A stretch of 64,000 nucleotides of DNA from Crocodylus rhombifer (Eukaryota > Chordata > Crocodylia > Crocodylidae), in assembly GCA_038503035.1 (NCBI GenBank), contig JAVSML010024439.1, positions 1-64,000 on the forward strand, in the 5' to 3' direction. Below the pieces are notes generated by a model. That model did not search any database. It saw only the letters and a list, made by a program, of their open reading frames with translations, and had not been told where the DNA came from. The translations under genes were made by a program, and so were the position numbers. Below, one piece after another: positions 751 to 64,000 of the stretch. How positions within the stretch are numbered: position 1 is the first letter of the stretch; the number at the start of each line of letters is the position of its first letter.

Positions 751-969
751 CAGTTTTAAGATATAATGAGTCAGCTTTATAAGAACTTCTAAATATTTCT
801 GTTCCACCAATCAAGTGATACTGCTTCTTTGCATAGACTATTCCAGTACAGTGTGATCTCTCATACAGGCAAGCATTTTCAGCAGATTTAAGCGAAGAGT
901 GCACTTTTGGAATCGCATTCTGTCTGTGCATTATGAGGTAGCCAGCATAAAACTGAAACATATTTTCAG
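751..969 (-). CDS. Exon 25: two-cysteine module 5; gene continues off the window
   Basis: Residues about 1158-1231, 219 nt, phase 1-1. It opens [16 protein letters not shown], has [19 protein letters not shown] around its cysteines, and ends S-L-Y-L-K-T-G. The acceptor is CATGTAG|CT and the donor ACTG|GTAAGT. By the pattern of units 1-4, a fifth EGF-like exon should follow beyond base 1. Confidence 0.86.
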
Positions 970-3900
970 CTACATGGAAGAGAAAGAGAGAAAAAAGATT
1001 CCCAAAATGATGGCCTCTGTCATCATAAATTATATATGTTCCTCCAGTATTTATGGATTTATCCTCTCACTGGGGAAAGACAGGGAAAAACTACTATGTC
1101 TATCTTGCAATGGTTGGAGAACTAAGGTACTGAGAGGTTAAGGGACTTGACCAACAACACAAGAAATCTGGGGAAGAGCCAGAGACTGAATTCAAACCCT
1201 CCTGAGGCCCAGCCCAGTGCTTTAAGCATCACATGACCTCTTCCTAGTCTAACTTAGAGCCTAGCATTCAACTAACTAAAACCATTTAACATAGCAAGCT
1301 ACTAAAGGAAAGGCAATCAAGATTTATACCAGGAAACATAATGTACAGTTACATACCTAAATTTATGCAAACTGGAAAATTAAATCTGGTGCCGGTCTAC
1401 AAACACGGCCATTTAGATATCAAAGCCCTCCTCTTTATATTACATAATAATTATTATGTATGAAAAAGCAAGGTTATATAGTAAAGAATGTGTTGGGCCT
1501 TATTCTGATGTCACACCTAAACAAACCAATAGCAACTGCACAGAAGACAACAGAACTACATTAGCATGTGAAGAAAATTATAAGCAAAATAAACCCCCTG
1601 TATTTCCAAGTGGAAAAACGCATGTTAAAATACTGAATCATTTGTAACTAATTAACAAGAACTTACAGAAACAGAGGAAGAAATAAAAGGAGTGAAAAGA
1701 AAAGCTAGCTAGTTACTTACATTCTCTTCTTTTACACACAAAATTGTGTTTTGAAAGGCAATCAACTCCTTGTAAAGTCGCTTCATTAGTCCAAACAGCA
1801 ACACAGTTTGCAGTTGCATTTCCTTGAACCTTGATCCTGAAACAAGCAAAATTCCAAAATGCATTTCAAAATGCAAGGGAAAAACCCCAACAAGAATATG
1901 GTGCATCATCTACACACATTAATCAGCCTAAAAACACAAGAACTTCAACAGTAAAGTTACACTTCTCATGCAGAAGATTTATAAATCCTGTGTATATTGT
2001 ATGGTACAAGTGAACAAAACAACAAATGTATTACATTTCATTAAACCTTATGCCAAGAAAAGAGGAACAGAAAATAACCTATATGGACAAGATAACTAAG
2101 GTTGGGGGATATGGAAATGAGGTAAAAGAGAAAAAGAAAAGTATCATCCCACCCACTGCCATGCAGAGTCTGATGTCACCCTATTCTTTCCTATCCACAC
2201 AGGCCATTTTATCATCTTTTGCAGCCAGTCCCGTAAAGCAACACAATACACTAAATTACAAACTGATACAGAAAATTCAGTTTTTAACAGGTACTTTAAG
2301 GTGTTATTCCAAAAGAAAAGTACAATATAATCTTACCAACACTTTTGGCAATGATAATTTTCTGTTTACTGTGATAAGAAACAGAAAAGTTATCATTGCC
2401 AAAAGTGTTGGTAACATTAACTTTCCTAGGGAGGCTCCTATCCCTTGGGAAAGTTATTCTGGACTTTTTTACAATACAATTGAAAAGTGTGATGTTAGAT
2501 GGTACACCACACAAGTTTCAATCCTAGTCTGGACAACGACTTAATATCATGGTACCCAAACTGTGATGTGTGTACACATAGCGGTTCACCTAGCCATTGG
2601 ACTGCCATTTCTACCTTTTTATATAAAAAGTTGGTAACAGTGCTTGGTGGCCCGCAAAATATTTCAGAGTTACAATGGTCCATTCATCCAAAAAGCCTGA
2701 GTACCACTGCCTTAAAGCACTGTCCTACTACAGTTTAGATACCCATTGTACTATACCATGACCTAGATAATTATCCGGCAATATTTGTATCCATGGTACC
2801 TGTTGACACTGCATTTGGATTGTGCACACATAGAATATATGTTTCTTTCAGTTTCTAGTAAAAAAAAAAAGTGTATTAATTCAACAGATTTGCCCCTACA
2901 ACATTAAATTAACATTTTGGGAGAGTTTGATATTTCAAAGTCCTGATATACACAGTTTAATTTAGCTTGATCAAGAGAACAATAAGTCAAGCATTCAAAA
3001 CCTTTAGCAACTATAGGGAACAGTATCCAACCTACAAACTTTGCACCTATTACAAGTTACAAATACTAAGAGAGGAAATTGTACCAAGTGTCAACTGTTG
3101 CTCCATCTATCCACTGCCACGCAGAATCTGATGTCGCCCTACTCATTCCTATCCACACAGGCCATTTTATCATCTTGTGTAGCCAGTCCTGTAAAACAAC
3201 ACAATCCACTAAATTACAAACTGATACAGAAAACTCAGTTTTTAACTGGTACTTTTAGGTGTTATTCCAAGACCTGATATCATTTAAACCACAGGTTTTC
3301 ATTTGCTACCTTTCCATGTAACTCGATTTCTGCTTCTTATTAACACAGAAAACACAGACATTTTGAATGGTCCATACAGCACTAGCAATAAACTTGTAAA
3401 CAAATATCCATCAGAAGACGAGGGAGCAGGAGGAAATCACACAGATATTTTTCCCTCTAAACCAGAGGGTTTACCTGCGATTCCCTGCTATTCCCACCCC
3501 TTTCCCCAGGACTAGTTACACACTACACCTTTTGATGCTCCAGTGCTGATCAGTGTTAGTGCTGGCTTGAGTTTGGAGCCATAAGTTCAGAGCAGCAGGG
3601 GACTTGAAAACTGAAATGTTAAGATTTCCTCCTGCTCCCATTACAGGCTTTCCCCAGTGCCCCCCAGGGCTCCCACCTGCACTCCCCTGTTCCCAGGACT
3701 CCCTCATTCCCCGCCAGCTTACTTTACCAGGGGAAAAACCAACACTGTCCTAGGGGAGCAGGCAGGGAAGGGAAACCCCACCTGCCCAGCCCCAACCCCA
3801 TCCCCAACTGAGCTGCTGCTCTTCTCCTAGCTGAGCCCACACCAGACAGCAGCAGTCATGAAGGCAGCAGCAGATGCCAAGCAGGGGTTTTCCCTTCCCT

Positions 3901-6900
3901 ACCTGCTCCCCCGGGATAGCACAGAAAGACAAAAGTTACCGGGGTGGGGGGAGAAGAGGTGGTGGTGAGCATGGATATGGGGTGCTGGGGGGCCGGGGAA
4001 CAGCAGGCCCATTCCAAGAGGAGAAGGGTAGCAGTGGGCCGATCTGGGCTTCTGGGGAACAAGCGTGGGAACCCAACTGGGAGGGCCAAGGAAGCAGTGG
4101 GCCTGATCGGGAATGAAGTGGCTACAGATTAGTGTAACATGAGCTGGGTAACACAATCAGAAATAAATGTAAACTGGATGGCATAACTTTAAAATACCTA
4201 ATGAGTGCTTAAAACTAGTTTCACGTGTTAATGTGTGGACAATGCAGGGGTTAAGAGCTCCAGGAGCCACCTAAAATTAAGGTCCATGGGGTACCCTTGG
4301 AACAAGGCCCTTAGCGTGCAAAAAATTAGGAAGGATATGTACTGTATTTCACGGTGTATAATTTGACATGGCGTGCAGGTTGATTCTCCATTTTCCGATG
4401 AGAAATTAGGATTTTCATAGGCACAGTGTAAAAGTCAGGGCTGGGCTTGGCACTCAACTGGCACAGCCCCATCCCTTGCAAGTGGCACTGTTGGGCTGCA
4501 CCAGCTGAGCACCAAGCCCAGCCCCATGCACTGGGGGCACTGCTGAGCTCTGAACCCAGCTCCATCCCCTGCAAGAGGTGCTGGGCTTGGTAATGCTGCT
4601 TGCAATAGACAGGGCCAGGCTTGATGCTCGGCTGGCACGACCCTGTCCCCTGCGAGCAGCGCAACCCCAGCTGACTGCTGAGCCCAGCCCCATCCCTGTC
4701 CTCTGTGAGCGGCACTGGGCTTGGCGCTCAACTGGGGCCACGCTACTAGCAGGGGACAGTGACAGGGGTCAGGCTCAACTGGCACAGCCCCAAACCCTGT
4801 AAGTGGTGCTGGGCTCACAGGGTGGGGCTGCGCCAGCTGAACACCAACCCTGGCCCTGTCTTCTGCGAGCACTGCTGCCGAGCATCGAGTCCAGTGTCAC
4901 TCACAGAAGATGGGGTTGGGCTCATGCTGAGCAGCACTGCTTGCAGCAGATGGGACAGGGTTTGGCACTCAGCTGGTGAGGCCTCACCCCGTAAGCAGCA
5001 CTGGTGATGCCCAGGCAGCATCGCTTGCAGGGGATAGGGCCACGCCAGCCAATTTCCGATCCCAGCTTTGTCACCTGTGAGGGTGCCAGGCTCAGCACTT
5101 TGCTGGCGTGGCCCCATCCCCTGCAAGCAGCACTGCCTGGACCATGCCAGCTGAACGCCAACCCTGGTGCCACTCACAGGGTACCATGTGTAAGTCGAGG
5201 TTGAATTTTAAGAGTTAAGAATTGGGCTTCAAACCTTGCTATGCACTGTGAAATATGGTACCTTCCATGGTCTCCATTACAAGAAAGCATCAGACTGCTT
5301 CCCAAGTAAGAGGAAAACTATTCCTGGTCAAACCTTTTCAGCAGAGGATTCCAACTGCAACAGACTTGTTCCTTTAAAATGGCTACAAAACAGCCTGGCT
5401 TCCATCCAGCTCAAACTTCTGTTGCCTTCTATAAGGTAGCACCATCCATTCCTGTACCACCAGCCAAAACCAAGAGGACACTTCAAGCTGTACTTGCCTG
5501 ACATTAAAAGAAAAGAGAAAATGGCAAATCCTATAAAACAGCTTCCTTTTAAGGCTAAAAAGTTTTTTTTTTCCCTGGGATATCTGGCTTCTCATGCTCC
5601 TCTCCCGACATAGCTGTTTTTATTCCCATTTCTATTCTAATAGCTTTTTAGATATTGTGTTGTGTAATTACTTCTAGAAAACTGAAAGAGACTGGCAACT
5701 GTTTCACTTCCTGAGGCTATATATCTAACTAGTGTTCTTTATCATGCCCACAAACCTGGCAGCCATATATTCATACACAAAAATATTAATTTGTTTGGGC
5801 TAAACTGAGCAAATGCTCATGTAAATGCCAGTTTAGTAATCACTGCCAACAGCAGGAGACCTGCTGCAAAAGGATGACATTCACCCCAGGTCTGACATGG
5901 AAATTCACACCTATGCAGAGAACCAGCTCAAAGTCATGGAACCATTGAGGCCCTTGTTGGAAGATGAAAATGATAGTGGTACTTAGACCTTGGGCTATTC
6001 TTCTGAAGAAAGCACTCTCCTTTAAAAAGAAAGCATTCTTGACTAGATGGACTATTGGTCCAACCTAATACAGCACTTCCTGTCTTCTTATGTTCTTCTG
6101 AGAAAACAGACACATTTCACACAAACAACCCATCCTGGAATATAGTACAGGCTTAACTACAGCCAAATCCTTAGTTGCTGCTGAAGACTGATCTCCATGG
6201 GTGTTTGTATACTGAAAAGGCTATGAAATAAGAGTAGAGAGACCAGCCAGCACCTAGCAGACAGCAAAGGTTAGCTTGATTAATGGAACATCAACACCAA
6301 TATAAAGAAGAGATGATTGTTAACACCTGTACACTGAAGAGCAATGAGCCATTTAGTTTTTCCCTCAGCTACCTGAATAGTAATAACGCAGCTGTTCTCC
6401 TGGACAGAGAAATAGCTTTCCCACTTAATTAGCACCCCCCAATATTTTTTTTTTTTTTTTGGGGGGGGGGGGGGAAGCTGATTTTGGGAGGAAATGTATA
6501 TAATATGTGAGAAAATACAGTACTTTCTCAGGGAAACACAAGAAAAACCAGGCCTAAAATCTCCACACCACACCACTACTCCTCTATGACTATCTGTTCC
6601 CAGGCACAGGCCAGAAGATGCAAGCACATGAGATGGCAAGGTTCTGAAATGTAATTTTAGCACCTGAAAAATTCCACAGAAACAGGTACAGCAAGGGAAG
6701 GAGCCAGGTCTATTAATCCAGACACGTGTCAGTTTCATCAGTCTTGACTGCATCCCTTTGATTTTGCCCAGATTGGTTTAAACGCTTTCTTCCCCAAGTA
6801 TTAGAAAGAGATGTTTGAAATGCATTTATTAAACATGATTCTTCTACAGGCAGCACAGTGAAAAGCTCTCTATTTCTCTCTTCAGGAGAACGTGGAAGAA

Positions 6901-9900
6901 ATTCAATATATAAAAGCTTTAACTCGCAAAACATTTGCAATTAAATTTTTATTGCAAAATTATTTCTTTAAATATAGGATTTTTAGTTATCCTTTGACTG
7001 AATAATTCAAACAGAATAAAAATTCTCACCCTTGACAAGGCTACATATAAAGCTGTCCATGTGTAAACATAGGCTGAGGAATATAAATACATATTCTGTC
7101 AGAAGTCTGGCGTTGTGATTCGCTCATAGTCAGAGAACGGGCCCTTGTACACGTGAGGAAATTTCCCTTTTTAATGGTTTAACTGAGTAACAGTGTACAC
7201 ACTTGGCAGCATGTTGCCATTACGTTTTGTAACAGTGCACACATTCAGCGATATGTAGCACTGTACTTTTTTATGTAGCAAACTAAAACACATCCCACGT
7301 ATTTTAGTTTGCGAGGTAACAAATAACAGCGATATTCTTCATGTGTACAAGGGCCCTATCCAGAGTAGGCAGCAGGGATGGTACACAGGTGGCTGGAAGT
7401 TCGGGCGTGCTTGGCGAAGTCCAGGTTTGGTGGGCTTCCAGTGCTCCATGCACCATCCCCACCGCCTTCTCCAGCTGCCAGCACACCTAGCCACCCTCCT
7501 ACTGCCTTCCTGGGGCAGCCAGCCCATTCCCGGGCAGTCCCAGGTGGCAGGGATGGTACACAGGGTGCTGGAAGCCTGCCAAGCCTAAGGTTCCCTGGGC
7601 ACTCGCAGGCTTCCAGTGCCCCATGCACCGTTGGATCCAGTGAGTGCTGTCTGCAACCTGGGGCTGCACCTGCACAGCTAGCACCCCATCTGGGCAGCCC
7701 TAGGGGGCACTGCCGCCACAGAGGGAAGTACTGCTCCACTCTCCCCCCCGCAGCTCAGGGACTGCATGACCTGATGGGCAGGCTCCACTGAGCAGGGGTG
7801 AGGGGAAGCGGCGAGGGGCCCGATCTCCGCCCCCCGAGCCTGCCTGCGTCTCCTGCAGCTGGAGGATCACGCAGCCCGAGCTGCAAGCTGCAGGGGACCC
7901 TGGTGCTTCCCTCCACCACGGCAGCACCCCCTGGGGCCTCAAGGCTTCCCCCTCCTTCAGTGAAGCCTGTCCACTCTGCAGTGGGGGACCCCAGTGCTTC
8001 ATTCTAGCTCTGACTTGCCTGCAGATCTATTTAAAATGCCTCAGGATCTATAAGAATAACATGGCTATTCTGTCTGTATTGCTTGTTTCAGTAAGCATTG
8101 TGATTAGCTGCTGAGACAATCTATCAAGAGTGCTCCAGACAGACAGAATAAGCCTATTATTATTATAGCTACACTGTATGTCAGTAAAGCCAATCTGCTT
8201 ATACGAAGGATTTGTCACCTTAATTCTGTTATATATTAGAGTAGATCTGGCATGACTACCCCAATTTGATAGTTTAGTAGACAATCATCAATCCTTCTGG
8301 ATCATGGTGTATGCATGACAGGTCACCAGGCCCTTTAACGCATACACCTAGGCAGGAGTGTGGAGGAGGGGAGGCTGCCCAGACCTCCCATCCCCCCTTC
8401 AGACCATTGAGACAGGATCCTAATGCCAGACCAAGTCTGGCCATTCAGTGGCTCAATGGCTGTAGTTATATGCATGTCCAGGAATCAAACCCTGGTCTCC
8501 CACATGGAGGGCAAGGATTCTACCACTGAATGACAACAGTGGAAGGCAATTTGATGGAGTTTACTAGTGTTAAAGTACACTAGTGAATGCAAATGCAGAT
8601 TCTGCCTTACTGCATACTAATGAAGCTTTCCCACAAATTTAAAAATAAGAAAAATAACATACTATAAAATGAGCTGTTTTAAATAACACTGCTATTCTAC
8701 TATGCCCTTGTAACACAAACATATTGACCTGAACACCAGAATACCCTGATTGCTTCATATACATACCATGGCAAAAAACCAGAGGCACTATCTTCATGTT
8801 CCCATGTAAGCTTATTTGGCTATAAGGAAACACTGCATACCATAAAAATAAAAAAATCATGGAAGAGCTGGATCCACTACCGCATTATGGGTTTTTAATT
8901 TAAACCTTTGGAAGAAGGAACGCTCAGTTTTAATCCCAATTATCAAACAGATAAGATTTTAAAATAAATGCTTACCTAAATCACAGGCCCCTACATCTTC
9001 TGGTGCAGCACAAACAACACTGTCCACACACTCTCCAGATATGCTATTGCATGGCATGTCCCAATAGCAACGTGAGCACTCCTGTTCACATGACAGTCCA
9101 TAGTATCCAACATTACAAGCTTCAAAAAAAATGAAACACATACCAATCTTGGGAAAAAAACGTTATGGTTAGAATGGACATTTTCTCATAGAAAACATGC
9201 TGAATAAATTGTTCCTTCTCTTTACAATAAATGAAATGTTAGCAATTTTCAGCTAGGGGTCACTAGAATTTAAGCCAAAACAGAATTTTTAAAAACTATG
9301 CATAGTATCCACTTAAGCCTCATGCTGCTAGCTGGTATATGAAGACATTTTATTTAACGGGGGGGGGGGGGAAATTTACTGATATATCCAAATAAGGTAT
9401 ACTACCTGATTTTAGGTATGTGACACTGGGTGCAAATCCACCAATAACCAATTCAGAGTTATTTATCAGTAAATAAACATCTCTCCAAAGCATATAGCCA
9501 AGGCACCCACGTTTCTGCTTTACACATTGTTCTCTGGCCAATGTATGGTTAGTGTAGTTATTAGATAGTCTCAATGCTGGAGAGACTGTTACTGTATCCC
9601 AAAACCCCATGAACACGTCAAGATCTGAAGAAAGAAAAAAGTTTCACTCACTGATGGTTTACTGGAAGACTGCCACAGTATATAACAGATGAGGTGATAG
9701 TTACAGATTAATGTATATTGGTAAAATGTACATGTATTGCAGTTCATATTCACTACCCTTTACCATCTGAGATTTTAATGGAATGGCTAAGAGTCATTAC
9801 TCAACTACCTTAAGATGTTTAATTCCGTATATGAATAGTCATTAAGCACAGTCTGTAAATACCAGCTATTTGCTGACAGTGAAACATGAGACCTTTTTTG

Positions 9901-12900
9901 CATTTCTTCACAGCCAACATTTAAACATAAATAATAATAAAGCTAATAGGAGCCATTTCTGGAAAATATGTACAACGTTATGTTTTCTATAAAACTTCAG
10001 ATGCCCAGCAATATCAAGGAGCAGCTTGTATTGACAATGTCTGTTCACATACAAATTATACTGGGCATGTCTACATGAGAAGCTTTACTAATCTACTGCA
10101 TGGTCGTTGTCATTATTGGCAGCCCCTCACAGACGAGGATGACGTCCATCAGGGTTGATGGGTCCTCAGGTGACTGAGGAGCCTGATTCTGGATACACAT
10201 GTTCTTCGGCAATGGGGGCATGTTGTTGCATGGGGGAGTGGGAGTCACAATCCTCAGCTGGTCTCCTTCTCTTTCCTCCACCCGTGCAGTTCTGGCTCAG
10301 TATTGAGTCGTTGGGCTTCAAAGTGGTGTACACCTTGGTGGACCACATGGTGCCACACCGAATGGTCAGCATCTTGCTCCTCTTAGCTGTTGGTGTCAAT
10401 GCCTCTGTGCTTGAGGGAAACCTTGAGTAAATACAGGTACTAAATTAACTATACAGTAGTTACAATGCAGCAACACTTATGTAGATGCTGACTGATAACA
10501 AAATTGCTCCCAGTCAGCTACACCAGCTGAGGGCCACAGGGAATGAGGGAGTTCTCTGTCCCCCATCCTGGTGCTGCTCTGCTTCCGGCTCTCCCCAAGA
10601 GCCAATTAGCACCGGGAGGAGGTTGCTCTTTGCCCCTCATCGCCATCCTGGTGCTGTGTGGCTTCCAGATTCCCACACAAGCCAGAAGTTGAGCAGCGTT
10701 GGGACTGGAGAGCTATCTGCTTCCTCACTCAGCTGGGAGCTCACTGACTCGCTCAGCCATCAGGGAGCCCTCTGGAATGGGACAGGTCCCAGCCAGCCCA
10801 CTGCTGGGAGGGGAATCCCTGCCCAGCTTGGGCTCACCAGCAGCTGCCCCAATGAGGTCCCAGTGAGCCAACTGATGGGAAAACCCTACTGGGCATGGGG
10901 GCTCGCTGGCAGCTGTGTCCCAACGTGCATGGGGCTGGCAGAGCTCTGCCCGCTGCAGCAGCAGCTGTCTCCCATCCTGGTGTACATCAGGACCAACCCC
11001 TGGGCTAGCACCCCAGGGAGCCTGGAGCTCCCTCCCCCTGGTTGCTGCAGGGGGGCAGCAGGGCAAGAACATCTCTGTATTGGGCTGCTTCTGTTGGGAG
11101 CAGATTTGCTCCCAACAGGGTGCAAGTATAGTCATGCCCCCAAGGAAGGCTTACCGTATAGTAATGTACTATGCAATAAGCATATTAATTAATTTACTAT
11201 TAATCACATTAATAGCACATGTAGACATGCCCACTGTCTCTTTCTCTAGGCTGTTAAAGGCATCTGTCTGTCTTACAAGACAACAGAACTGAACTGAGAC
11301 AACATCTTGTTGAACACCTGCAAGTGTGGCTGAAGAGCACAACTCTTGAACAACAGTCCCTTCTGCACTGTTCACATGTGAATTTCATATCTAACAGTCA
11401 TGAATGGGATGCAGGTTCTTCCCAAGGTTTCTTCTCTCCTCTGAACATGGGGCTCTCCTTTCCTCAAAAGCCTTTATTTCATGCTTCAAAGGCTGTTTCC
11501 AAGTGCTTCAATCCTCGTTTCAACAATCTTCTCCCAGTCATTTGGCTCAGTGTTCATTGCCTTCATATCTCTCTTGCAACCATGTTTGAAAGAGATCAGG
11601 ATGCCCACATGGTCACCTTCCTGTTAAGAGTTCTCCATACAAGAGATCCTTGGGCCATTGTCCATTCTCTGCACATAATGCTGACTGAGAAGAAAACGGA
11701 TGCATGTTCCAAGACCTCAGCATGGGCAACTCTGTCCCACCAGGAAATTTCTAGAATGAGGCAAAGGCAATGTAAGTGGAAGCTGTTGAGGTGCTTTTTC
11801 TTGAGTAGAGTGTAATCCAGGATTCACTGCCATATAAAAGGGCGTTGATGATGCAAGCATGATATACTTTGACCTTGGTCTTAACAGTCGGTTTGTTGTT
11901 ATTCCACATTCGTTTGCTCGGCATAAGTTATATGACTAGATTATGTCTATTCACATACAACTCATACTGTCTCTTTCTCTAGGCTGTGTTAAAACTGTAT
12001 TTAAAACCTCAGCGCATTCTGATGAACTCACATGCAGTTATTAGAGTTCACTTTTGGAATGATTTGAATAAGCTCTAGTGAAACTTTTTGAGACACTTTA
12101 TAGGATGCTTCTATCAGTGCTCAGTGTTTCTGCCCTTTGGGAAATACAATAAAATCTTCAACCACATAGGGTAAGCTAATTTTGATAAAGTAGAAATTCT
12201 TCCCCATGCAAAGACAGAACAAGGTATAGGCATTATTCAATTCATATTTAAACCTTTCACATACTGGCCCACTGGTCAAAGGAAATTCCACAAAAAATTA
12301 ATATAAAATCAACAGACTTCAAACCTGGTTCTGCTGCCTTTTTGCACACCCACCCCTTGGCTTTGTTACAGTCTGCTACAGACACGTATTTATCAGCTGT
12401 CAATTCAACACATCTATGCTGTCTTTTCTTCTTTTTTAGAACTAGCCTGTTGCAGAAAATAAAAACACAATTCAGGGCATCAGTTCTTTTTGGACTGTAT
12501 CTAACTCACCTAAGATGTCGGTAAACTGGGATGGATTGAGGGAAGGACAGCAAAAACAATGAACATGAGTAGGAAGAGACATGGAAAAAATAATCCACTG
12601 CAAAGGAATAAAAATTACTAGAATTTAATATGAAAATTGTCTCTGACTGCCCACCAGGATTAACAAAAAAAACAGCAGTGAGAAAGGGGGAGAATTTCCT
12701 CATCAACAGTCTATGGCGTTCCTAGAATATAAGACAAAATAAGATTCCAAAAAAACCCCTCCTTCTATATTGTTATAGAGAACAGTATCCACTCACCATT
12801 CTGACAAATGGATTTTTAACAATAAAAGTGTTTAAAAATGTCAGATATTACAAGAGATGCAAAAGAAAGGACAAAGAATTATTAACTGGTACAATCAAAG

Positions 12901-57900: not shown

Positions 57901-60593
57901 GCTAGAGGCTAACCCTTGGGGCTCCACTCAATGCAGTCACTGCAAAACAAGACTAGGGAGGCCCAGGGAAGCTTTCTTCACCCAGGTCTCACTGCAATGA
58001 TGGTAGCGGCTCTGGGCGAAGAGTGGAGCCATCAGAGTTTAACCCCCAGCGTGGCGTTGGAGGGTGGAAATAGGTAGAAGTGCTAGGAGTCATATACCCT
58101 GGGATGCTGGAGGACTATAAATTAAGTGTTTTACCTCCCCAGAGCTGAATAAGAATATCCTGGAACAACCTGAGTAAAAGATTTAAGTTAACCCTCACTT
58201 CAGTTGGCTCATCGTTAAAACGTTTACAGCATGGGTGGGCAATTATATGGGCCCAAGGGCCATTTAGGGAGTTTTGGTGAGCTGTTGCAGGTCAGATCAG
58301 CACCTTCCCTCTGCACCCCACAACAGCTCACCAAAACTCACTAAGGGGCTCTGCCTCAGGCCCCGGTCCCACACTGTCACCACTTGCCAATCCCAGGGTC
58401 TCCATGGAGATCAGCCCAGGACACAGGCAGGGCACACTCAGCCAGAATGATGGGATGGGGTCGTGGGTAAGCAGGGAACAGCATCTGGGAGCAGGATGGG
58501 CAGGTGGGGCCAGGATTGTGGGGCAGTGACAATGTGGAGCTAGGACTAGTTCCTGGGCCAGAACCATGATCCTAACACACCTCTGCCACCCATTGCAGGG
58601 ACATGCAGGCAGTGGATCATGGCTCTGCCTTAGCTCCATACTGTCGCCACCCCACAGTCCCGCTCCCAGCCCCGCTCCTGGATACCACCCCCTGCCCATC
58701 GCCCCCTCTCATCTGCCTGGCCAAGCACGCCCTGCCTGAGTGGGGCCTGAGCCAGTCTCCATGGAGACCCCATCCACCTGCTCCATCAGGCACCCTCCAC
58801 TGGCGGACAGGACAGGGTGCCCAAGCAGTGGAGCTGTGTCCAGCAGGAGCAGCTGGGAAGCAGGGTACGCCTTCCAGGAAGCAAAGTACAGTCCCAGCCC
58901 CGTGGCATGCCCGGGGTGGCAAGTAATGACACTAACCTCCTCTGTGATCATTTTGACAAAAACTAGATTACTGCCACTGCAATGATATAACAAGGAAAAA
59001 AATCACCATTCCAGAACTGAACAGAATGATGTTATGAGTATTTAATATTTATGGTGCAGTTGAATGCAGAAACCTACAAAGACAGAGGTACCTTTCATAT
59101 TGGGTACAGCGCAAACACAGGATCACTGTGCAAACACAGGATCATACAACACTGTGTTCAATGTGTCAAAAAAACAAATTTTCTTTATTTTTAAACAAGA
59201 AAGATAATCCAGTGGTTTTCTACCCCAGTATTTTACTCGCCATTCCTTGGAAGAGAGAAAAAAAACAAAACTCTTGAAGCTGCATCTACTGATACATCTC
59301 GAGCAAGACCCAGGATGTCATCCTCCCAGTGTCCTCAGCCTAGGTGAGGCCACAGCTGGCGTACTGCATCCAATTCTGGGCTCCACAATTTAGGAAGGAC
59401 ATGGAGAAGCTCGAAAGAGTCCAGAGGAGAGCCACACACGTGTGCAGGGGGCAAGAGAGCACGAGGAGAGGCTGCGAGCTATGGGTCTCTTCAGCCTGGA
59501 GAAGTGCAGGTTCAGGGGTGACTTGGTGGCAGCCTATAAAGGGATGTGCATCAGGATCTGGGGAACGCCTGTTCACCAGAGGTCACAAACTCCTGCAAGA
59601 CCATTTTAGGCTGAATATAAAAAACTTCTTTACTGTCCAAGCCCCCAAGGCCCGGAACAGACTCCTCCAGAGGTGGTTCAAGCGCCTATTATGGACACTC
59701 AAGAAACATTTGGACATTTATCTTGCTGGGATCCCATGATCCTAGTTCACTTCCTGCCCCTTGGGCAGGGGGCTGGACCCAATGATCTTTCGAGGTCCCA
59801 TCCAGCCCTAATGTCTATGAAATCTATGAAAGTAAATGTCAGTTTATGTTATAAAAACAAGACACAGAGTAATGCCATGGGTCTGGTAAATTCCTCCTGC
59901 AAGAAATGGGTTCATAAGTAGTGAGCTTATAGTTGAGTCCCTGGGTGCTCCAGCCTGCAGGCCAAATTCATCCCACTCAGCCCTGACAGGTAGAGATATC
60001 TGGGCATTTAATAACTGGTGGGCAAGCCCCTGCACCCTGTACAGTGGGTCCAAGCCAGGCCATCCTCCTTCCCCACTGCCCACACCACTGGCTTGGGCCC
60101 AAGACATGCCCCCTTCCCCGACACAACTGGACTGGGACCAGGGCGCACCCCCGCACACAGCAGGATGGGCCCCTCCCATGCCCGGCCAGCTCTGGCACTG
60201 CCCACCTGACCTGCCAGGCAAAAAAATACTGAGTACTAATAGTTTACTTTAATTTAGAGATTTCCCCCCTCTGGCTTACAGAACCCCTTGCAGTGCTCAG
60301 GGGCAGGGAACAGACGGGCAAGTCCCTCGTGCAGCCTACTCGCTCGCACTCTCTGAGGTGATTTTTTTTTTTTTAATAGGAAGCCAAAATCAGTTCCAAA
60401 TCCAACTGGGGTCAAGAGTCAAGGTCCAAAATTGGACTCAATTATGAAGTGACTCAGGGACTCCCACGAGGGTCGTCTCACAAGACCTGGATTAGGTTTG
60501 AGGCCCCGAGGCCCAGCCCTTACCTGCGGGCCCCGGGACGCCCCGCACCGCGCGCACGTGGAGTAGCAGCAGCAGCAGCCCCAGCCGCGCCAT
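751..60593 (-). CDS. Multi-CTLD/EGF modular extracellular protein, 25 exons found, 3' end beyond window
   Basis: Exons (high to low): 60593-60524, 45694-45531, 40685-40573, 38883-38765, 36008-35790, 35070-34927, 34690-34527, 34377-34262, 32900-32785, 30477-30253, 28698-28555, 27650-27487, 27192-27086, 23225-23113, 22096-21890, 17364-17221, 14981-14821, 14493-14381, 12446-12325, 9624-9406, 9119-8976, 5497-5334, 3188-3085, 1836-1721, 969-751. All junctions are AG/GT and reading phase is kept throughout: 3691 nt, about 1230 residues. The protein is a signal peptide (1-23) followed by five units of CTLD, two-cysteine module and eight-cysteine EGF-like module, the last unit incomplete. CTLDs lie at about 24-155, 277-409, 532-660, 777-909 and 1030-1158. 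They have all six long-form cysteines but no EPN/QPD or WND, so calcium-dependent sugar binding is unlikely. Probable role is an extracellular binding protein or receptor ectodomain (inference). I know no named family with this order. Exons were found by eye, with no transcript support. Confidence 0.85.
1066..1250 (+). repeat. MIR-like SINE relic
   Basis: Contains the conserved MIR/core-SINE stretch around GAGAGGTTAAGGGACTTGAC, followed by a CAGAGACTGAATTCAAACCC-like segment. This is a strongly diverged, old amniote element inside intron 24. Confidence 0.6.
1721..1836 (-). CDS. Exon 24: CTLD5, last third
   Basis: Residues about 1119-1158: [15 protein letters not shown], then [18 protein letters not shown] is a sequon. 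The last three core cysteines and F-V-C-K-R close the fold. The acceptor is TTTCAG|G (phase 2) and the donor GAAT|GTAAGT (phase 1). Confidence 0.86.
2144..2230 (-). pseudogene. Broken duplicate of CTLD5 middle exon
   Basis: Reads [17 protein letters not shown] then [10 protein letters not shown] and stops (TGA at 2146-2144). It is closely similar to exon 23 (3085-3188). The acceptor AG is changed to GG, and the donor end is lost. The duplication also takes in about 80 bp of upstream intron: about 2144-2314 matches about 3098-3272. It therefore cannot be spliced as a normal CTLD exon. Confidence 0.82.
2144..2314. repeat. Segmental duplicate, copy 1 (partner 3098-3272)
   Basis: About 170 bp shared with 3098-3272 in the same orientation, about 955 bp apart. 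Both include a middle CTLD exon and the adjoining intron through a shared GGTGTTATTCCAA. Copy 1 is the decayed one. Confidence 0.8.
2333..2414. repeat. Near-perfect 82-bp hairpin, mariner-MITE-like
   Basis: Arms 2333-2367 and 2379-2414 pair over 35 of 36 positions with a single one-base bulge; the loop is 11 nt. The ends read TTACCAACAC...GTGTTGGTAA, so a TA sits at each outer end as in Tc1/mariner insertions. Size and layout recall MADE1-type palindromic MITEs, some of which produce microRNAs. No transposase is present. Confidence 0.75.
3085..3188 (-). CDS. Exon 23: CTLD5, middle third
   Basis: Residues about 1085-1119: [20 protein letters not shown], then [12 protein letters not shown]. 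The WIGM core is present and there is no EPN/QPD. At 104 nt it is the shortest middle exon but keeps phase 0 to 2. The acceptor is TTTTACAG|GAC and the donor ACTTG|GTACAA. A broken duplicate of this exon lies about 950 bp further downstream in the transcript. Confidence 0.84.
3189..5333. other. Intron 22: GC-rich tract and a TIR element
   Basis: 3490-4130 is a GC-rich tract of unknown origin with no believable ORF. 4340-5260 is an inverted-repeat element described separately. No further exon signatures were seen. Confidence 0.6.
4340..5260. mobile_element. TIR element with an internal degenerate minisatellite
   Basis: The ends match as inverted repeats over 21 bp with four mismatches (4340-4360 TACTGTATTTCACGGTGTATA against 5240-5260), and both ends begin at a TA. 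The interior (about 4430-5180) is a GC-rich array of roughly 55-60-bp degenerate units built on a CCCCATCCCCTGCAAGCAGC-like core. There is no transposase, so it is a non-autonomous element. Confidence 0.6.
5334..5497 (-). CDS. Exon 22: CTLD5, first third
   Basis: Residues about 1030-1084: [20 protein letters not shown], then [15 protein letters not shown] and [12 protein letters not shown] is a sequon. The acceptor is AATGTCAG|GC (phase 1) and the donor GAAAAG|GTTTGA (phase 0, weak). A different frame across the same bases gives a misleading 70-residue ORF. Confidence 0.86.
6445..6474. repeat. Poly-T then poly-G tract
   Basis: Sixteen T followed directly by fourteen G. On the minus strand (the transcribed sense) this is C14A16. 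Likely to be length-variable. Confidence 0.9.
7139..7356. mobile_element. MITE with GGGCCCTTGTACAC termini
   Basis: Left end GGGCCCTTGTACACGTGAGG at 7139 and right end ATGTGTACAAGGGCCC at 7341-7356 are inverted matches. The interior is AT-rich with no ORF. I could not see a clean target-site duplication. Confidence 0.65.
7370..8010. repeat. GC-rich block with two imperfect palindromic units
   Basis: Two units (about 7375-7465 and 7548-7635) each start GGATGGTACACAGG and end with a near inverse, CTTCCAGTGC[TC]CCATGCACC. Long ORFs on both strands here are by-products of high GC content. Confidence 0.5.
8311..8542 (-). repeat. tRNA-Gly-derived sequence or SINE
   Basis: On the minus strand, 8542-8466 resembles tRNA-Gly: an A-box-like TTCAGTGGTAGAATC, an anticodon loop CCTCCAT (anticodon TCC) and a B-box-like GGGTTTGATTCCTG. 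Position 33 is C rather than T, and the acceptor stem does not pair well, so it is not a working tRNA. The adjoining GC-rich 8311-8465 may be a SINE body. Confidence 0.55.
8767..8819 (-). pseudogene. Relic of a CTLD middle exon
   Basis: Encodes [14 protein letters not shown] before CCATG|GTATGT, matching the end of exon 18 ([13 protein letters not shown]). The flanking intron also matches (about 8690-8766 with about 14300-14380). The WIGL core is missing, and an in-frame TAG lies just upstream of the preserved part. It sits between an EGF exon and exon 22, where its phase 0-2 would not fit. Confidence 0.7.
8976..9119 (-). CDS. Exon 21: eight-cysteine EGF-like module 4
   Basis: Residues about 982-1030, 144 nt, phase 1-1. 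It opens [18 protein letters not shown] and ends [10 protein letters not shown]. All eight cysteines sit where they do in exons 6, 11 and 16. The acceptor is TTTGAAG|CT and the donor TTTAG|GTAAGC. Confidence 0.88.
9406..9624 (-). CDS. Exon 20: two-cysteine module 4
   Basis: Residues about 909-982, 219 nt, phase 1-1. It opens [18 protein letters not shown], has [20 protein letters not shown] with two overlapping sequons before the cysteine pair, and ends SVTYLKSG. The spacing between the cysteines is one residue longer than in the other copies. The acceptor is TCTTCAG|AT and the donor TCAG|GTAGTA. Confidence 0.86.
10063..11232. mobile_element. DNA element with GGGCATGTCTACATG termini and 3-bp duplication
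   Basis: Termini GGGCATGTCTACATG (10063) and CATGTAGACATGCCC (to 11232) are inverted. ACT precedes and follows the element (10060-10062, 11233-11235). A related unoccupied site, with a single ACT at 11966-11968 between matching flanks, lies 730 bp away. The interior is GC-rich, without a recognisable transposase. The 235-residue plus-strand ORF at 10485-11192 looks spurious. Confidence 0.75.
11270..11935 (-). mobile_element. Non-LTR retrotransposon fragment, degenerate
   Basis: On the minus strand, short stretches such as [17 protein letters not shown] and [16 protein letters not shown] match the sequence expected after the reverse-transcriptase core in LINE ORF2 proteins. Frames are broken. 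Similar flanking sequence on each side (10041-10062 plus 11233-11258, and 11945-11990) may be its long target duplication. Confidence 0.6.
12325..12446 (-). CDS. Exon 19: CTLD4, last third
   Basis: Residues about 868-909: [12 protein letters not shown], then [20 protein letters not shown] basic KKKKR run replaces the usual loop sequence. Core cysteines and W-V-C-K-K are intact. The acceptor is CAACAG|G (phase 2). The donor CCAG|GTTTGA (phase 1) is weak at +3 to +5. Confidence 0.82.
12986..13585. mobile_element. Non-autonomous hAT element, 600 bp
   Basis: Exact 8-bp target duplication GTTTAAAG at 12978-12985 and 13586-13593. The left end CAGTGGTCTCCAACC is hAT-like; the right end reads TAGGGGTC on the other strand. 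GC-rich interior with overlapping spurious ORFs and no transposase. It lies in the intron between exons 19 and 18. Confidence 0.8.
14381..14493 (-). CDS. Exon 18: CTLD4, middle third
   Basis: Residues about 831-868: [19 protein letters not shown], then [20 protein letters not shown] is replaced by WTGL. The acceptor is TTTGCAG|ACT (phase 0). The donor CCATG|GTTTGT (phase 2) is weak, so skipping is possible. A degenerate copy of the 3' part of this exon and its downstream intron lies near 8690-8819. Confidence 0.83.
14821..14981 (-). CDS. Exon 17: CTLD4, first third
   Basis: Residues about 777-830: [19 protein letters not shown], then [17 protein letters not shown] and ESVEEL. NTT is a sequon. 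At 161 nt it is one codon shorter than its counterparts. The acceptor is TTTTTAG|GC (phase 1) and the donor GAACTG|GTACAG (phase 0). Confidence 0.87.
14982..17220. other. Intron between exons 16 and 17
   Basis: AT-rich. No domain signature, splice-flanked ORF or complete mobile element recognised. Confidence 0.55.
17221..17364 (-). CDS. Exon 16: eight-cysteine EGF-like module 3
   Basis: Residues about 729-777, 144 nt, phase 1-1. It opens [18 protein letters not shown] and continues [16 protein letters not shown]. The cysteine spacing is identical to exons 6, 11 and 21. The acceptor is CTGAAG|GC, with a modest pyrimidine tract. The donor is ATAA|GTAAGT. Confidence 0.86.
20283..21620 (+). mobile_element. 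Possible LTR-element-derived region
   Basis: It has a promoter-like GGGACCATAAAAGTTCAGG near 20436 and repeated AGAGGGGC.CA.C...ACAAGGC motifs at 21050-21190. No gag, pol or env-like coding sequence is visible. This is a tentative reading from composition and motif layout only. Confidence 0.25.
21620..21775 (+). repeat. MIR-like SINE relic
   Basis: Diverged match to the MIR core around AACTAACCAAGTTGCCCAAA followed by TCACAAATGATAGAATCCCA. Confidence 0.5.
21890..22096 (-). CDS. Exon 15: two-cysteine module 3
   Basis: Residues about 660-729, the shortest copy at 207 nt, phase 1-1. It opens [16 protein letters not shown], has [19 protein letters not shown] around the two cysteines, and ends R-N-T-V-Y-L-K-T. 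The acceptor is CTTGCAG|AT and the donor ACAA|GTAAGA. Confidence 0.87.
23113..23225 (-). CDS. Exon 14: CTLD3, last third
   Basis: Residues about 622-660: [18 protein letters not shown], then [18 protein letters not shown]. Three core cysteines and W-V-C-K-K close the domain. The acceptor CAACAG|G (phase 2) matches the equivalent acceptor of exon 19. The donor is GCAG|GTATTG (phase 1). It follows a 3.9-kb intron that carries a CR1 element. Confidence 0.86.
24930..25938 (+). mobile_element. CR1 LINE 3' fragment
   Basis: Segments such as [13 protein letters not shown] and [15 protein letters not shown] match the reverse-transcriptase C-terminal region of CR1, followed by the usual 3' UTR ending GACCCTAACATCTATGAATC. 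Frames are broken, and a 167-bp MITE interrupts it at 25470-25636. Confidence 0.85.
25470..25636. mobile_element. hAT-type MITE nested in CR1
   Basis: Starts CAGGGGTGGGCAAAATG and ends in the inverse (GCCCGTCCCTG). It is a full-length sister of the copy at 49199-49367. CR1 sequence resumes directly after it. The target duplication is not clean. Confidence 0.8.
25968..26289. mobile_element. MITE with GGCTGYTTGCAGACATTAAA termini
   Basis: The left terminus at 25968 and the right terminus ending 26289 are inverted copies over about 22 bp, ending in an A-run and a T-run respectively. No ORF. It lies 30 bp beyond the CR1 tail. Confidence 0.65.
27086..27192 (-). CDS. Exon 13: CTLD3, middle third
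   Basis: Residues about 587-622: [20 protein letters not shown], then [15 protein letters not shown]. The WIGL core is present, NSS is a sequon and EPN/QPD is missing. At 107 nt it is nine shorter than the longest such exon (exon 8) and still keeps phase 0 to 2. The acceptor is TTTCAG|ATG and the donor AGCTG|GTAAGG. Confidence 0.87.
27487..27650 (-). CDS. Exon 12: CTLD3, first third
   Basis: Residues about 532-586: [20 protein letters not shown], then [14 protein letters not shown] and [17 protein letters not shown] is a potential glycosylation site. The acceptor is a good TTTACAG|GC (phase 1). The GTATTT donor (phase 0) is the same weak form as in exon 7. Confidence 0.87.
27651..28554. other. 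Intron between exons 11 and 12
   Basis: Nothing recognised beyond spurious short ORFs. Confidence 0.55.
28555..28698 (-). CDS. Exon 11: eight-cysteine EGF-like module 2
   Basis: Residues about 484-532, 144 nt, phase 1-1. It opens [18 protein letters not shown] and closes [12 protein letters not shown]. The eight cysteines have exactly the spacing of exon 6. The acceptor is ATGCAG|AA and the donor ATCAG|GTACAG. Confidence 0.87.
28699..30252. other. Intron between exons 10 and 11
   Basis: Nothing recognised: no repeats with clear termini and no exon signatures. Confidence 0.55.
30253..30477 (-). CDS. Exon 10: two-cysteine module 2
   Basis: Residues about 409-484, 225 nt, phase 1-1. It opens [17 protein letters not shown], has [19 protein letters not shown] around its two cysteines, and ends [11 protein letters not shown] is a potential N-glycosylation site between the cysteines. 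The acceptor is TTCACAG|CG and the donor CAGG|GTACGT. Confidence 0.86.
31329..32427. mobile_element. Foldback hAT-like element, copy A
   Basis: Exact 8-bp target duplication CTAAAGTA at 31321-31328 and 32428-32435. The left terminus TAGAAATGCAATGAT and right terminus ATCGGTGCACTCCTA are inverted. Sub-terminal TTGGCTTTTTTTGGCC is mirrored by GGCCAAAAAAATC. The two halves are broadly complementary, so the element is one long imperfect inverted repeat. The GC-rich interior yields a spurious 274-residue ORF. No transposase. Confidence 0.87.
32785..32900 (-). CDS. Exon 9: CTLD2, last third
   Basis: Residues about 370-409: [16 protein letters not shown], then [17 protein letters not shown]. The last three core cysteines and the W-L-C-K-K end of the fold are present. 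The acceptor is TGTCAG|G (phase 2) and the donor GAAT|GTAAGT (phase 1). Confidence 0.84.
32901..34261. other. Intron 8
   Basis: A diverged MIR-like stretch lies at about 33440-33570 (GAAATTGCAGCACAGAGTGG). Otherwise nothing recognised. Confidence 0.5.
34262..34377 (-). CDS. Exon 8: CTLD2, middle third
   Basis: Residues about 332-370: [20 protein letters not shown], then [15 protein letters not shown]. The WIGL core is intact and no EPN/QPD is present. The acceptor is TTGATAG|GCT (phase 0) and the donor CACTG|GTAAAGT (phase 2). The exon is too short and too internal to show as a free ORF. Confidence 0.86.
34527..34690 (-). CDS. Exon 7: CTLD2, first third
   Basis: Residues about 277-331: [20 protein letters not shown], then [12 protein letters not shown] and a closing GSQKEL. 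It has the same length (164 nt) and phases (1 to 0) as exons 2, 12 and 22. The donor is GTATTT, which is canonical GT but a weak consensus. The acceptor is GACTAG|AA. Confidence 0.86.
34927..35070 (-). CDS. Exon 6: eight-cysteine EGF-like module 1
   Basis: Residues about 229-277, 144 nt, phase 1-1. Cysteines sit at module positions 2, 11, 15, 18, 24, 31, 37 and 46. The sequence opens [20 protein letters not shown], with the G-Y-F-G turn typical of laminin-, MEGF- and scavenger-receptor-type EGF modules. The same eight cysteine positions recur exactly in exons 11, 16 and 21. Confidence 0.87.
35790..36008 (-). CDS. Exon 5: two-cysteine module 1
   Basis: Residues about 156-229, one 219-nt exon in phase 1-1. 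Key features are [14 protein letters not shown] near the start, [20 protein letters not shown] with the only two cysteines, then Y-A-L-A-G-G-T and a closing Y-A-Y-V-K-S. The pattern A..aC......CtG...Y.L..Gt...Y.K recurs in exons 10, 15, 20 and 25. It slightly resembles a pared-down PAN/apple domain, but I cannot assign a family. The TTTAG|AT acceptor and CAG|GTAAGC donor are good. Confidence 0.87.
36009..38764. other. Intron 4
   Basis: AT-rich sequence with one GC-richer repeat-like block at 37838-38118 that contains a 38-bp palindrome (37980-38017). No exon signature. Confidence 0.55.
37980..38017. repeat. 38-bp palindrome centred on CTGGATATCCAG
   Basis: Seventeen-base arms with two mismatches around a four-base ATAT centre. 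It lies inside a repeat-like block, so it is probably part of a mobile element. Confidence 0.75.
38765..38883 (-). CDS. Exon 4: CTLD1, last third
   Basis: Residues about 116-155: [17 protein letters not shown], then [16 protein letters not shown]. It supplies the last three core cysteines, the closing WICKR motif and an N-glycosylation sequon (NTT). The WND calcium motif is replaced by LDCNA. The acceptor is GAGAG|GTCTTGG (phase 2) and the donor GCAG|GTGAGA (phase 1). Confidence 0.86.
39625..40385 (-). mobile_element. CR1 LINE 3' fragment
   Basis: Antisense CR1: the plus strand starts with the tail complement TTCATAGAAAATGAGAGTTG, then GGAAGGGACCTCAGGTCTAG. On the minus strand a broken [10 protein letters not shown] and ...[20 protein letters not shown] frame follows. 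It lies in intron 3. Confidence 0.85.
40573..40685 (-). CDS. Exon 3: CTLD1, middle third
   Basis: Residues about 79-116, opening [17 protein letters not shown] and ending [14 protein letters not shown]. The conserved WIGL core of the CTLD fold is present. Where sugar-binding lectins carry EPN or QPD, this domain has no such tripeptide. The acceptor is CTGCAG|ATG (phase 0) and the donor CCCTG|GTAAGA (phase 2), the same phases as in group V lectin-like receptor genes. Confidence 0.88.
40686..45530. other. Intron 2, 4.8 kb
   Basis: Contains hAT-like copy B (41803-43174) and a possible reversed MIR relic near 44830-44935. A CT-rich stretch at 44040-44480 gives a 160-residue spurious plus-strand ORF. 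Confidence 0.55.
41803..43174. mobile_element. Foldback hAT-like element, copy B
   Basis: Exact 8-bp target duplication CCATTTAG at 41795-41802 and 43175-43182. The left terminus TACAGGTGCACCAAT and right terminus ATCAGTGCACCCCTA are inverted. It is the longest copy (1372 bp), GC-rich, with a poly-G run at about 42592-42604 and spurious ORFs up to 204 residues. Confidence 0.87.
45531..45694 (-). CDS. Exon 2: CTLD1, first third
   Basis: Residues about 24-78. It starts [20 protein letters not shown] and ends in TNPSEK before a GTAAGTA donor (phase 0). It shows the NK-receptor-like opening C-P..W.YW...CY, then W-I-E-A-L with the third core cysteine. Two extra cysteines (APC and CYC) are not seen in the other four CTLDs and could form an added disulphide. 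The acceptor is TTAAAG|CC, in phase 1. Confidence 0.88.
46259..47400. mobile_element. Foldback hAT-like element, copy C
   Basis: Termini TAGAGGTGCACTGAT and ATCGGTGCACTCCTA. Flanks GTTTTTGG and ATTTTGGG agree at six of eight positions, a decayed target duplication. Internal layout is as in copies A, B and D. It lies in intron 1. Confidence 0.8.
47540..47845. repeat. Degenerate TIR repeat between copies C and D
   Basis: It has GCAGCCACGTCTGCTTACAC at the left, GTGTAGATGCAGCCACT at the right, and several internal ACTGCACAGT motifs. This resembles the GGGCATGTCTAC-type elements elsewhere in the window. Boundaries are uncertain. Confidence 0.4.
47868..48851. mobile_element. Foldback hAT-like element, copy D
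   Basis: Termini TAGAGGTGCACCGATATATC and ATCAGTGCATCCCTA. Flanks GATGAAAC and AATGGTAA agree poorly, so the duplication has decayed or an end was altered. It is the shortest copy (984 bp). Confidence 0.78.
49199..49367. mobile_element. hAT-type MITE, 169 bp
   Basis: Exact 8-bp target duplication CTATAACG at 49191-49198 and 49368-49375. It starts CAGGGGTGGGCAAAATG and ends GCCTGCCCCTG. Same family as 25470-25636. Confidence 0.9.
52640..53580 (+). mobile_element. CR1 LINE 3' fragment
   Basis: Matches such as [19 protein letters not shown] and [15 protein letters not shown], then the 3' UTR ending AATGTCTATGAAATCTATGA. Frames are broken by indels. Confidence 0.87.
53590..54135 (+). mobile_element. 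Second CR1 3' fragment, different subfamily
   Basis: It restarts with GGGCCTCACCTGGAGCACTG and ends with GCCCTACTTTCTTATGACTA. It follows the previous CR1 tail directly but differs from it in sequence and end, so it is a separate insertion. Confidence 0.8.
54478..55798. mobile_element. Element with arms of about 340 bp in inverted orientation
   Basis: 54478-54818 and 55452-55798 are inverted copies, about 90 percent alike by eye, around a 633-bp centre. TTA lies at each outer border (54475-54477 and 55799-55801), as expected for PIF/Harbinger-type target duplications, with one extra base at one end. No transposase. The alternative is a simple inverted duplication. Confidence 0.7.
56548..56579. 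repeat. AAAT/AATA simple repeat
   Basis: Short microsatellite of AAAT-type units next to a GC-rich repeat region. Confidence 0.8.
56880..57650 (-). other. Unrecognised stretch with two open frames
   Basis: Two minus-strand ORFs of 110 and 109 codons occur here, without domain signatures or good splice context. The second carries [20 protein letters not shown]. They may be chance or an old mobile element; I do not assign a function. Confidence 0.25.
58230..58930. repeat. GC-rich repeat starting with a hAT-like terminus
   Basis: It begins CATGGGTGGGCAATTATATG, similar to the MITE start at 49199, followed by GC-rich sequence with spurious ORFs. I could not find the right end. Confidence 0.4.
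59275..59832 (+). mobile_element. CR1 LINE 3' fragment
   Basis: [17 protein letters not shown] and the usual 3' UTR ending CTAATGTCTATGAAATCTATG. Same subfamily as 52640-53580. Confidence 0.87.
60524..60593 (-). CDS. Exon 1: start codon and signal peptide
   Basis: The exon codes for [19 protein letters not shown] followed by PGPA, a classic signal peptide: one Arg, a run of leucines, then small residues for cleavage near Gly18-Ala23. The ATG has G at -3 and G at +4, and lies in a CpG island just below tandem NRF-1-like sites. The exon ends in phase 1 at a strong CAG|GTAAGG donor. The split codon (G|CC) joins cleanly to the CTLD1 acceptor 14.8 kb away. A longer in-frame ORF begins further upstream, near 60896, but it lacks a better start and the leucine-rich stretch fits this ATG. 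Confidence 0.85.
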
Positions 60594-60611
60594 CCCGCCA
60601 ACCCGCCCCGC

Positions 60612-60644
60612 TGCGCATGCGCGTCCGACCGCTGCGCATGCGCG
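60612..60644. promoter_or_regulatory. Two tandem NRF-1-like sites
   Basis: TGCGCATGCGCG occurs twice, at 60612-60623 and 60633-60644. Both are self-complementary matches to the NRF-1 consensus. They are spaced 21 bp start to start and lie 19-51 bp above the ATG. Confidence 0.75.
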
Positions 60645-60759
60645 CTGCTGCTCCCGCGCTCCCCCAGCGGAGCGGAGCCCTGCGGTTGGCGCAGCTGCGT
60701 GCTCGCCTGGCGGGAATCTGAGCGGCCGCGGCTGCTGGAGCTGGGCAGCCAGGCGCCGC

Positions 60760-62860: not shown

Positions 62861-62867
62861 AAATTAG

Positions 62868-63430
62868 ATTTCATAGATATTAGGGCTGGAAGGGACCTCG
62901 GAAGATCATCGAGTCCAGCACCCTGCCCAAGGGGCAGGAAGTCAGCAGGGGTCATAGGATCCCAGCAAGATAAGCATCCAAATGTCTCTTGAAGGCATTC
63001 AAAGTGGGTGCTTGAACCACCTCTGGCATCAGTCTGTTCCAAACCTTGGGGGCTCAAACAGTAAAGAAGTTCTTCCTTATGTCTAGCCTGAATCTGTCAC
63101 AGTGGAGTTTGTGATCGTTCGACCTCGTCATCCCTTGGGGCGCTCTGGTGAACAGACATTCTCCCAGATCCTGATGAGCACCTCTGATAAACTTATAGGT
63201 GGCCACCAGATCACCCCTGAGCCTGCGCTTTTCCAAGCTGAAGAGTCCCATGGCTCTCAACCTCTCATCGTAAGGTCTGTTTTCCTGACCATCGATCATG
63301 TGCGTGGCTCTCCTCTGGACTCTCTCAAGCTTCCACATCCTTTTTGAATTGTGGAGCCCAAAACCAGATGCAGTACTCCAGCTGCGGCCTCACCAAGGCC
63401 GAATACAATGAGAGAATGACGTCCTGGGAT
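62868..63430 (-). mobile_element. CR1 LINE 3' fragment
   Basis: Antisense CR1. The minus strand reads [20 protein letters not shown] and [19 protein letters not shown]; the plus strand starts with the tail complement TTTCATAGATATTAGGGCTG. Confidence 0.88.
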
Positions 63431-64000
63431 TTGCTTGAAATAAATTAAATTAAATACCTTGGGACAGTAACCTTGTCTTACTTACATGTGAAGTATTATG
63501 CACTTTATATAAACTGAATAATAACCCTTACTAGTGATAAATCATGACCCACATTCTCTTGTCAGACCCACACAATTCAGGAGTTATGCTATTGCTACTA
63601 CTAAAGTCAATGGACTTATTGAAGGATAAAGGCTATTGTACTTATACGCTGTGTCCAGACGAGCAAGAACATGCCTGTCGTGCTGCCTCAGAGCAGTTTG
63701 AGATGCTGCAAAATGCACGCTAAGAATGAAAAAATGTTCCCCGCATTGTATATTTGCAGCGCAGACTCTAAATTTGATACTAGGGTATGGAAAACTAACA
63801 TGCTGGGAAAAAGTGGTGAAGGGAGTACTCCTGAAGCAACTGGAGGCTGGGTCCTCCAGAAAGACTCTTGTAGCTAGCTTCTGGCAGAAACCCCTGGCAG
63901 CGCAGCACCACCTCATGCTGCACATGGCATGCAGCACTGGCGTGTGCCCTCAAACAGAACTGGGCCAGCTCCTGCTGTCACCCAGGCTCCTGGCACCGCA
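63431..64000. other. Window end, unassigned
   Basis: From about 63650 there is moderately GC-rich sequence beginning CGCTGTGTCCAGACGAGCAA, which looks repeat-derived. The minus-strand ORF at 63584-63937 has no recognisable domain. Confidence 0.4.

Follow-up and report, generated by a model that had tools for sequence, protein, structure and literature searches.

The closest described systems for a vertebrate protein with several CTLDs are the members of the mannose receptor family (CTLD group VI: MRC1, MRC2, PLA2R1, and LY75), which span the membrane in type I orientation, contain eight to ten CTLDs, and typically carry an endocytic motif in their tail. To our knowledge, this family comprises the large vertebrate receptors with many CTLDs that have been studied. 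The NK-receptor-type CTLDs of group V (CD94, KLRG1, LLT1, CD69, and NKp80) are of the long form, lack a Ca2+ sugar site, and occur in single-CTLD type II proteins. These domains bind proteins via a Ca2+-free face, as do the non-lectin CTLDs in LY75 and PLA2R; the domains of Langerin and DC-SIGNR are sugar-binding. The CTLD proteins of Fugu were reportedly the subject of a study in 2004. Here, we describe a gene in a 64-kb stretch of crocodile DNA, which was analysed as a whole and is called the window in the following. We propose, with a probability of roughly 60%, that its product would be a large type I receptor of the order [CTLD - PAN-like - EGF-like]x8 - CTLD9 - TM - short tail which binds protein ligands.

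Gene model in the window

Read on the minus strand, the gene runs in 25 exons from its start ATG at 60593 to the end of the window's last exon at 751. The sequence-only reading of this DNA had given the interval 751-60593 and 25 exons joining in phase, and this proved to be exact, the joined exons forming a stop-free frame of 1,230 codons that matches the predicted protein P0016 of Crocodylus porosus without gaps. The encoded protein starts with a signal peptide, which is followed by units of a CTLD, a two-cysteine module (D), and an eight-cysteine module (E), an order for which the same reading had argued and which is supported by the model as well as by the relatives described below. The window holds five CTLDs, five D, and four E modules, each CTLD being encoded by three exons (a, b, and c):

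60501..61000, no strand: CpG-rich stretch covering exon 1 (GC 0.78 and 0.60, CpG o/e 0.91 and 0.64 in two 250-bp bins), likely the promoter
60524..60593, minus strand: exon 1, ATG and 23-letter signal peptide (hydrophobic leader), phase-1 donor; one residue differs in P0016
45531..45694, minus strand: CTLD1 exon a
40573..40685, minus strand: CTLD1 exon b
38765..38883, minus strand: CTLD1 exon c
35790..36008, minus strand: D1, PAN-like two-cysteine module (fold predicted)
34927..35070, minus strand: E1, eight-cysteine EGF-like module
34527..34690, minus strand: CTLD2 exon a
34262..34377, minus strand: CTLD2 exon b
32785..32900, minus strand: CTLD2 exon c
30253..30477, minus strand: D2, PAN-like module
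28555..28698, minus strand: E2, EGF-like module; donor supported by P0016
27487..27650, minus strand: CTLD3 exon a
27086..27192, minus strand: CTLD3 exon b
23113..23225, minus strand: CTLD3 exon c
21890..22096, minus strand: D3, PAN-like module
17221..17364, minus strand: E3, EGF-like module
14821..14981, minus strand: CTLD4 exon a
14381..14493, minus strand: CTLD4 exon b
12325..12446, minus strand: CTLD4 exon c
9406..9624, minus strand: D4, PAN-like module
8976..9119, minus strand: E4, EGF-like module
5334..5497, minus strand: CTLD5 exon a
3085..3188, minus strand: CTLD5 exon b
1721..1836, minus strand: CTLD5 exon c
751..969, minus strand: D5, PAN-like module, final exon within the window

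In a six-frame ORF self-comparison the five CTLD first exons were mutually similar at about 1e-7 to 1e-13; more exons of each class were located with small profiles made from exons, and borders were set by splice-site scoring and reading. All introns are of the GT-AG type (24/24, with the E2 donor at 28555), and in all five units module borders are in phase 1, the border between CTLD exons a and b in phase 0 and that between b and c in phase 2. An E2 donor at 28573 was dropped in favour of 28555 because the remaining three E exons comprise 144 nt, a choice consistent with P0016. Pfam Lectin_C recognised five stretches of the joined protein (whole-protein E 1.9e-65).

Besides the exons used, the window contains a dead duplicate of CTLD5 exon b (2147-2230, minus strand) near the used copy at 3085-3188, with its acceptor changed from CAG to CGG and an early stop; translated matches of this area are 82-87% alike. 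Between E4 and CTLD5 lies an incomplete copy of CTLD4 exon b (8767-8819, minus strand); its 3' half alone is recognisable, and it has no counterpart in P0016. Mutually related GC-rich dispersed repeats occupy 31355-32176, 41680-43140, and 46300-48400, and a second set, presumably akin to the CR1-type repeats of reptiles, is found at 53000-54100, 59300-59900, and 62850-63480; no Pfam match was obtained in any of the repeat pieces tested.

Orthologues, nine-unit design and age

Residues 1-1230 of P0016 (Crocodylus porosus LOC109310035) align with the window model gap-free over 1230/1230 residues at 98.9% identity, with 13 single substitutions (leader 1, CTLDs 6, D modules 5, E modules 2, less one position). 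Identity is 96% over 1,152 common residues with P0001 of Gavialis and 68% over 1,215 residues with the turtle protein P0018. P0016 reaches residue 2238, beyond the 1230 of the window model, and by this comparison the gene is seen to extend past window base 1, so that the locus appears as the 5' part, from the signal peptide to unit 5, of a gene for a large membrane protein. That the locus might be a decaying or mis-assembled copy whose repeats are merely gene-like is a reading to which we assign a vanishingly small probability: two broken additional copies of a CTLD exon b in introns speak for it, but they are set against 1,230 codons without a stop or frame break, the near identity to an annotated orthologue and an order that is the same in squamates and, save for CTLD7 in one prediction, in turtle. 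These sequence comparisons confirm the gene as real and conserved in reptiles.

When the joined protein was used as query, 12 homologues were obtained, all from reptiles: nine of the same kind, each labelled "uncharacterized" or "unnamed", and three that are MRC1-like. Six of the nine were then aligned and used for a second search, which yielded 15 reptile proteins of the same kind, six of which were new; among these six, one is "hypothetical" at NCBI and is named in UniRef after its C-type lectin domain only, and the others are "uncharacterized". Orthologues annotated as "uncharacterized protein" include, beside LOC109310035, LOC109289781 (Gavialis), LOC106732388 (Pelodiscus), LOC120311809 (Crotalus), LOC107983185 (Anolis), and LOC114591207 (Podarcis), which share protein kind and module order with the window gene as far as each prediction is complete. 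The expectation that no well-described family has this order has to be divided: orthologues of the same order exist, but their names are only of the kinds just given.

Module profiles were scanned over 13 rows: the model from the window plus all 15 homologues of the family except P0006, P0008, and P0009. Five of the 13 (P0016, P0013, P0014, P0015, and P0017) show the complete order [CTLD-D-E]x8-CTLD9; these relatives comprise about 2,200 aa, arranged as signal peptide - [CTLD-D-E]x8 - CTLD9 - transmembrane - short tail, with hardly any linker residues between modules. The nine-unit form and the C-terminal half are taken from these relatives, as the window itself ends at D5. The repeat had been described as five-fold, a count that arose because only five units fit in the window; complete relatives contain nine CTLDs and eight D/E pairs. 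The seven remaining homologues are incompletely annotated, with modules missing or predictions truncated: P0018 is without CTLD7, P0004 without E4, and P0005 without two D modules, P0003 lacks E3 and stops inside CTLD9, and in P0007, P0001, and P0002 several modules are skipped or lost. Residues 1540-1631 of P0018, the site expected for CTLD7, contain no recognisable CTLD, which is probably due to a wrong frame or exon or to a loss in Pelodiscus. In P0009 (Ahaetulla prasina LOC131190532), a low-quality snake prediction, other Pfam accessions, which we take to be of retroelement type, lie between pieces of the same gene; it is probably a fused model or an insertion.

Cysteines and motifs were counted in eight of the 13 scanned rows. 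The D module has two conserved cysteines in all 61 copies of these eight rows; it matched no Pfam family, and with E values allowed up to 10 no PAN or apple Pfam model hit any of the 16 D copies searched. For D, a minimal PAN/apple fold with one disulfide is tentatively predicted, although the best Foldseek E value was 0.11 and no single PAN match was statistically strong. From the described PAN/apple modules (HGF N domain, plasminogen N-terminal module, apples of factor XI and prekallikrein, microneme apples) D differs by having only two cysteines and no Pfam match. The two-cysteine module of the earlier reading is thus retained, with this predicted fold added as a correction. The E module has eight conserved cysteines in 59/59 copies (eight rows), and the four window copies remained below the Pfam cut-off, with DSL and EGF_Hmr-1 scoring best (E 0.01, for E2). 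What had been called EGF is EGF-like, more precisely an EGF/DSL-like module with eight cysteines and with scores below all Pfam cut-offs.

For the age of the array, a tree was calculated from 49 family CTLDs (six of the eight proteins, window included) and eight CTLDs of the MRC1-like P0010. Each of the nine positions forms one clade, and support is 99-100/96-100 throughout except at CTLD8 (99/95). Eight clades hold crocodile, turtle, and squamates; in the CTLD7 clade, where the turtle copy is missing, only crocodile and squamates are represented. One clade per position means that the nine units predate the split of crocodile, turtle, and squamates. Hits with the CTLD-D-E order came from crocodilians, turtles, and squamates only in both searches, and no bird, mammal, amphibian, or fish protein was among the matches, the homologue search requiring shared five-residue words and a length window. 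The family is probably absent outside reptiles, and this distribution, together with the C-terminal hydrophobic segment of the relatives, agrees with the earlier suggestion of a lineage-restricted receptor.

Relation to known receptors, predicted membrane anchor and proposed ligand type

Like the members of the mannose receptor family, the protein combines several CTLDs, nine in complete relatives, with a predicted type I topology. While CTLDs of group VI are uninterrupted, D and E lie here between all CTLDs (five complete relatives and window). Neither a cysteine-rich (ricin-type) domain nor a fibronectin type II domain was found by Pfam scans of the window protein, P0001, P0004, and P0005; the window protein matched Lectin_C only (E up to 1), the other three gave beside Lectin_C only chance-level matches (E up to 10), and CTLD1 begins at residue 25. 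The MRC1-like P0010-P0012 are listed with PF00652 (ricin-type), and P0010 and P0012, not P0011, also with PF00040 (fibronectin type II). A hydrophobic segment follows CTLD9 in all ten proteins that reach the C-terminus and is predicted to be the membrane anchor; since it is combined with a signal peptide, the topology would be type I. The tail behind it is shorter in squamates (4-22 residues) than in crocodilians and turtle (42-45 residues), and a short list of motifs (YxxPhi, NPxY, acidic dileucine, FxNxxY/FxxxxxY, and ITIM-like) was found in 0/10 tails, in contrast to the endocytic motif of group VI. In the snake proteins P0004 and P0007 the tail stops four residues past the hydrophobic segment, and any cytoplasmic role in these snakes would differ from that in crocodile and turtle. 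Because four of the five features tested differ, the protein is not placed in the mannose receptor family, in agreement with the sequence-only reading.

We nevertheless weighed whether the protein could be a derived endocytic receptor of group VI that lost its N-terminal domains, gained inserts between the CTLDs, and clears glycoproteins or hormones, which we consider rather improbable. It would accord with the type I form, with the best PDB matches by sequence, LY75 and PLA2R, and with a CTLD profile, whose first 11 matches are chains of the yolk-sac IgY receptor, PLA2R, LY75, MRC1, and MRC2; however, chains with many CTLDs gather bits from many copies, so that such a ranking alone is no proof of kinship. 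The missing N-terminal domains in the four proteins scanned and the ten tails without endocytic motif argue against this descent, as does the MRC1-like control P0010, which has no D module. In the tree, one branch (100/99) splits its eight CTLDs from the 49 of the family, although this single MRC1-like protein was the outgroup and its branches are long, so that the tree does not decide how the two families are related.

Resemblance to group V concerns the domain: CD94 and KLRG1 also match by sequence, and LLT1, NKp80, and CD69 match by fold (target TM 0.85-0.89 with model CTLDs of the turtle protein P0006). The whole protein, a type I chain with nine CTLDs, differs from the single-CTLD type II proteins of that group. 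All 67 CTLDs counted contain the six shared cysteines, which together with the five Lectin_C stretches of the window protein assigns them to the long form of the CTLD superfamily. The Ca2+-dependent sugar-binding signature (Asn-Asp before the fifth cysteine and EPN/QPD) was found in none of the 67. The canonical Asn-Asp (WND) before the fifth cysteine occurs in 0/67; W[N/S][D/N] triplets occur in 13, none at the site before that cysteine, and an [EQ]P[NDS] triplet occurs in six, all of them CTLD1.

A loss of the sugar motif would still be compatible with non-canonical glycan binding, and an innate pattern-recognition receptor whose CTLDs bind glycans via a non-canonical or Ca2+-independent site would be conceivable, yet we judge it more doubtful still than a group VI origin. 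It would accord with a QPN or EPD triplet in CTLD1 of six of the eight proteins, with sugar-binding CTLDs among the fold matches (Langerin and DC-SIGNR domains, target TM 0.74-0.82 with the P0006 model), and with matches from reptiles only, as seen for fast-changing immune receptors. Against it stand the one-to-one conservation of the array, which sets it apart from immune families that expand, and the lack of Asn-Asp in all 67 CTLDs. Given that no canonical sugar site is present, the CTLDs would, in the type I receptor that we prefer, most likely bind protein ligands via a Ca2+-free face, by analogy with the protein-binding CTLDs named above. Small disulfide-bonded domains, joined with almost no linker, may form a long ectodomain, and since the tail carries no known sorting, endocytic, or tyrosine motif, surface capture or adhesion, or action through a partner, would be more likely than autonomous scavenging or uptake.

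Significance for reptile receptors

The gene is already annotated in public records without function, so that its existence is not new. A limited literature search returned nothing on the family, from which absence from print cannot be concluded; the part of PMC8144736 considered here deals with eggshell proteins including small lectins and not with the present gene. Overall, the sequence-only reading is partly supported. Judged by its predicted features, the gene is a variant of the multi-CTLD membrane receptor outside the mannose receptor family. We lean, by a little, towards the view that the protein is the founding member of a class of its own among vertebrate multi-CTLD receptors, (CTLD-PAN-EGF)x8-CTLD-TM. 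This class would have acquired its fixed set of nine units before lepidosaurs parted from archosaurs and turtles, would have persisted in non-avian reptiles but disappeared from birds, and would include a two-cysteine PAN-like family outside any Pfam profile. Such a second large design, with a fixed nine-unit order and a PAN-like module without a profile, would extend the diversity known for receptors of this type. Being kept across reptile orders and unseen among bird or mammal matches, it would offer a case for studying what birds and mammals lost or replaced, and its definition could give a name to "uncharacterized" LOC genes of reptile genomes.
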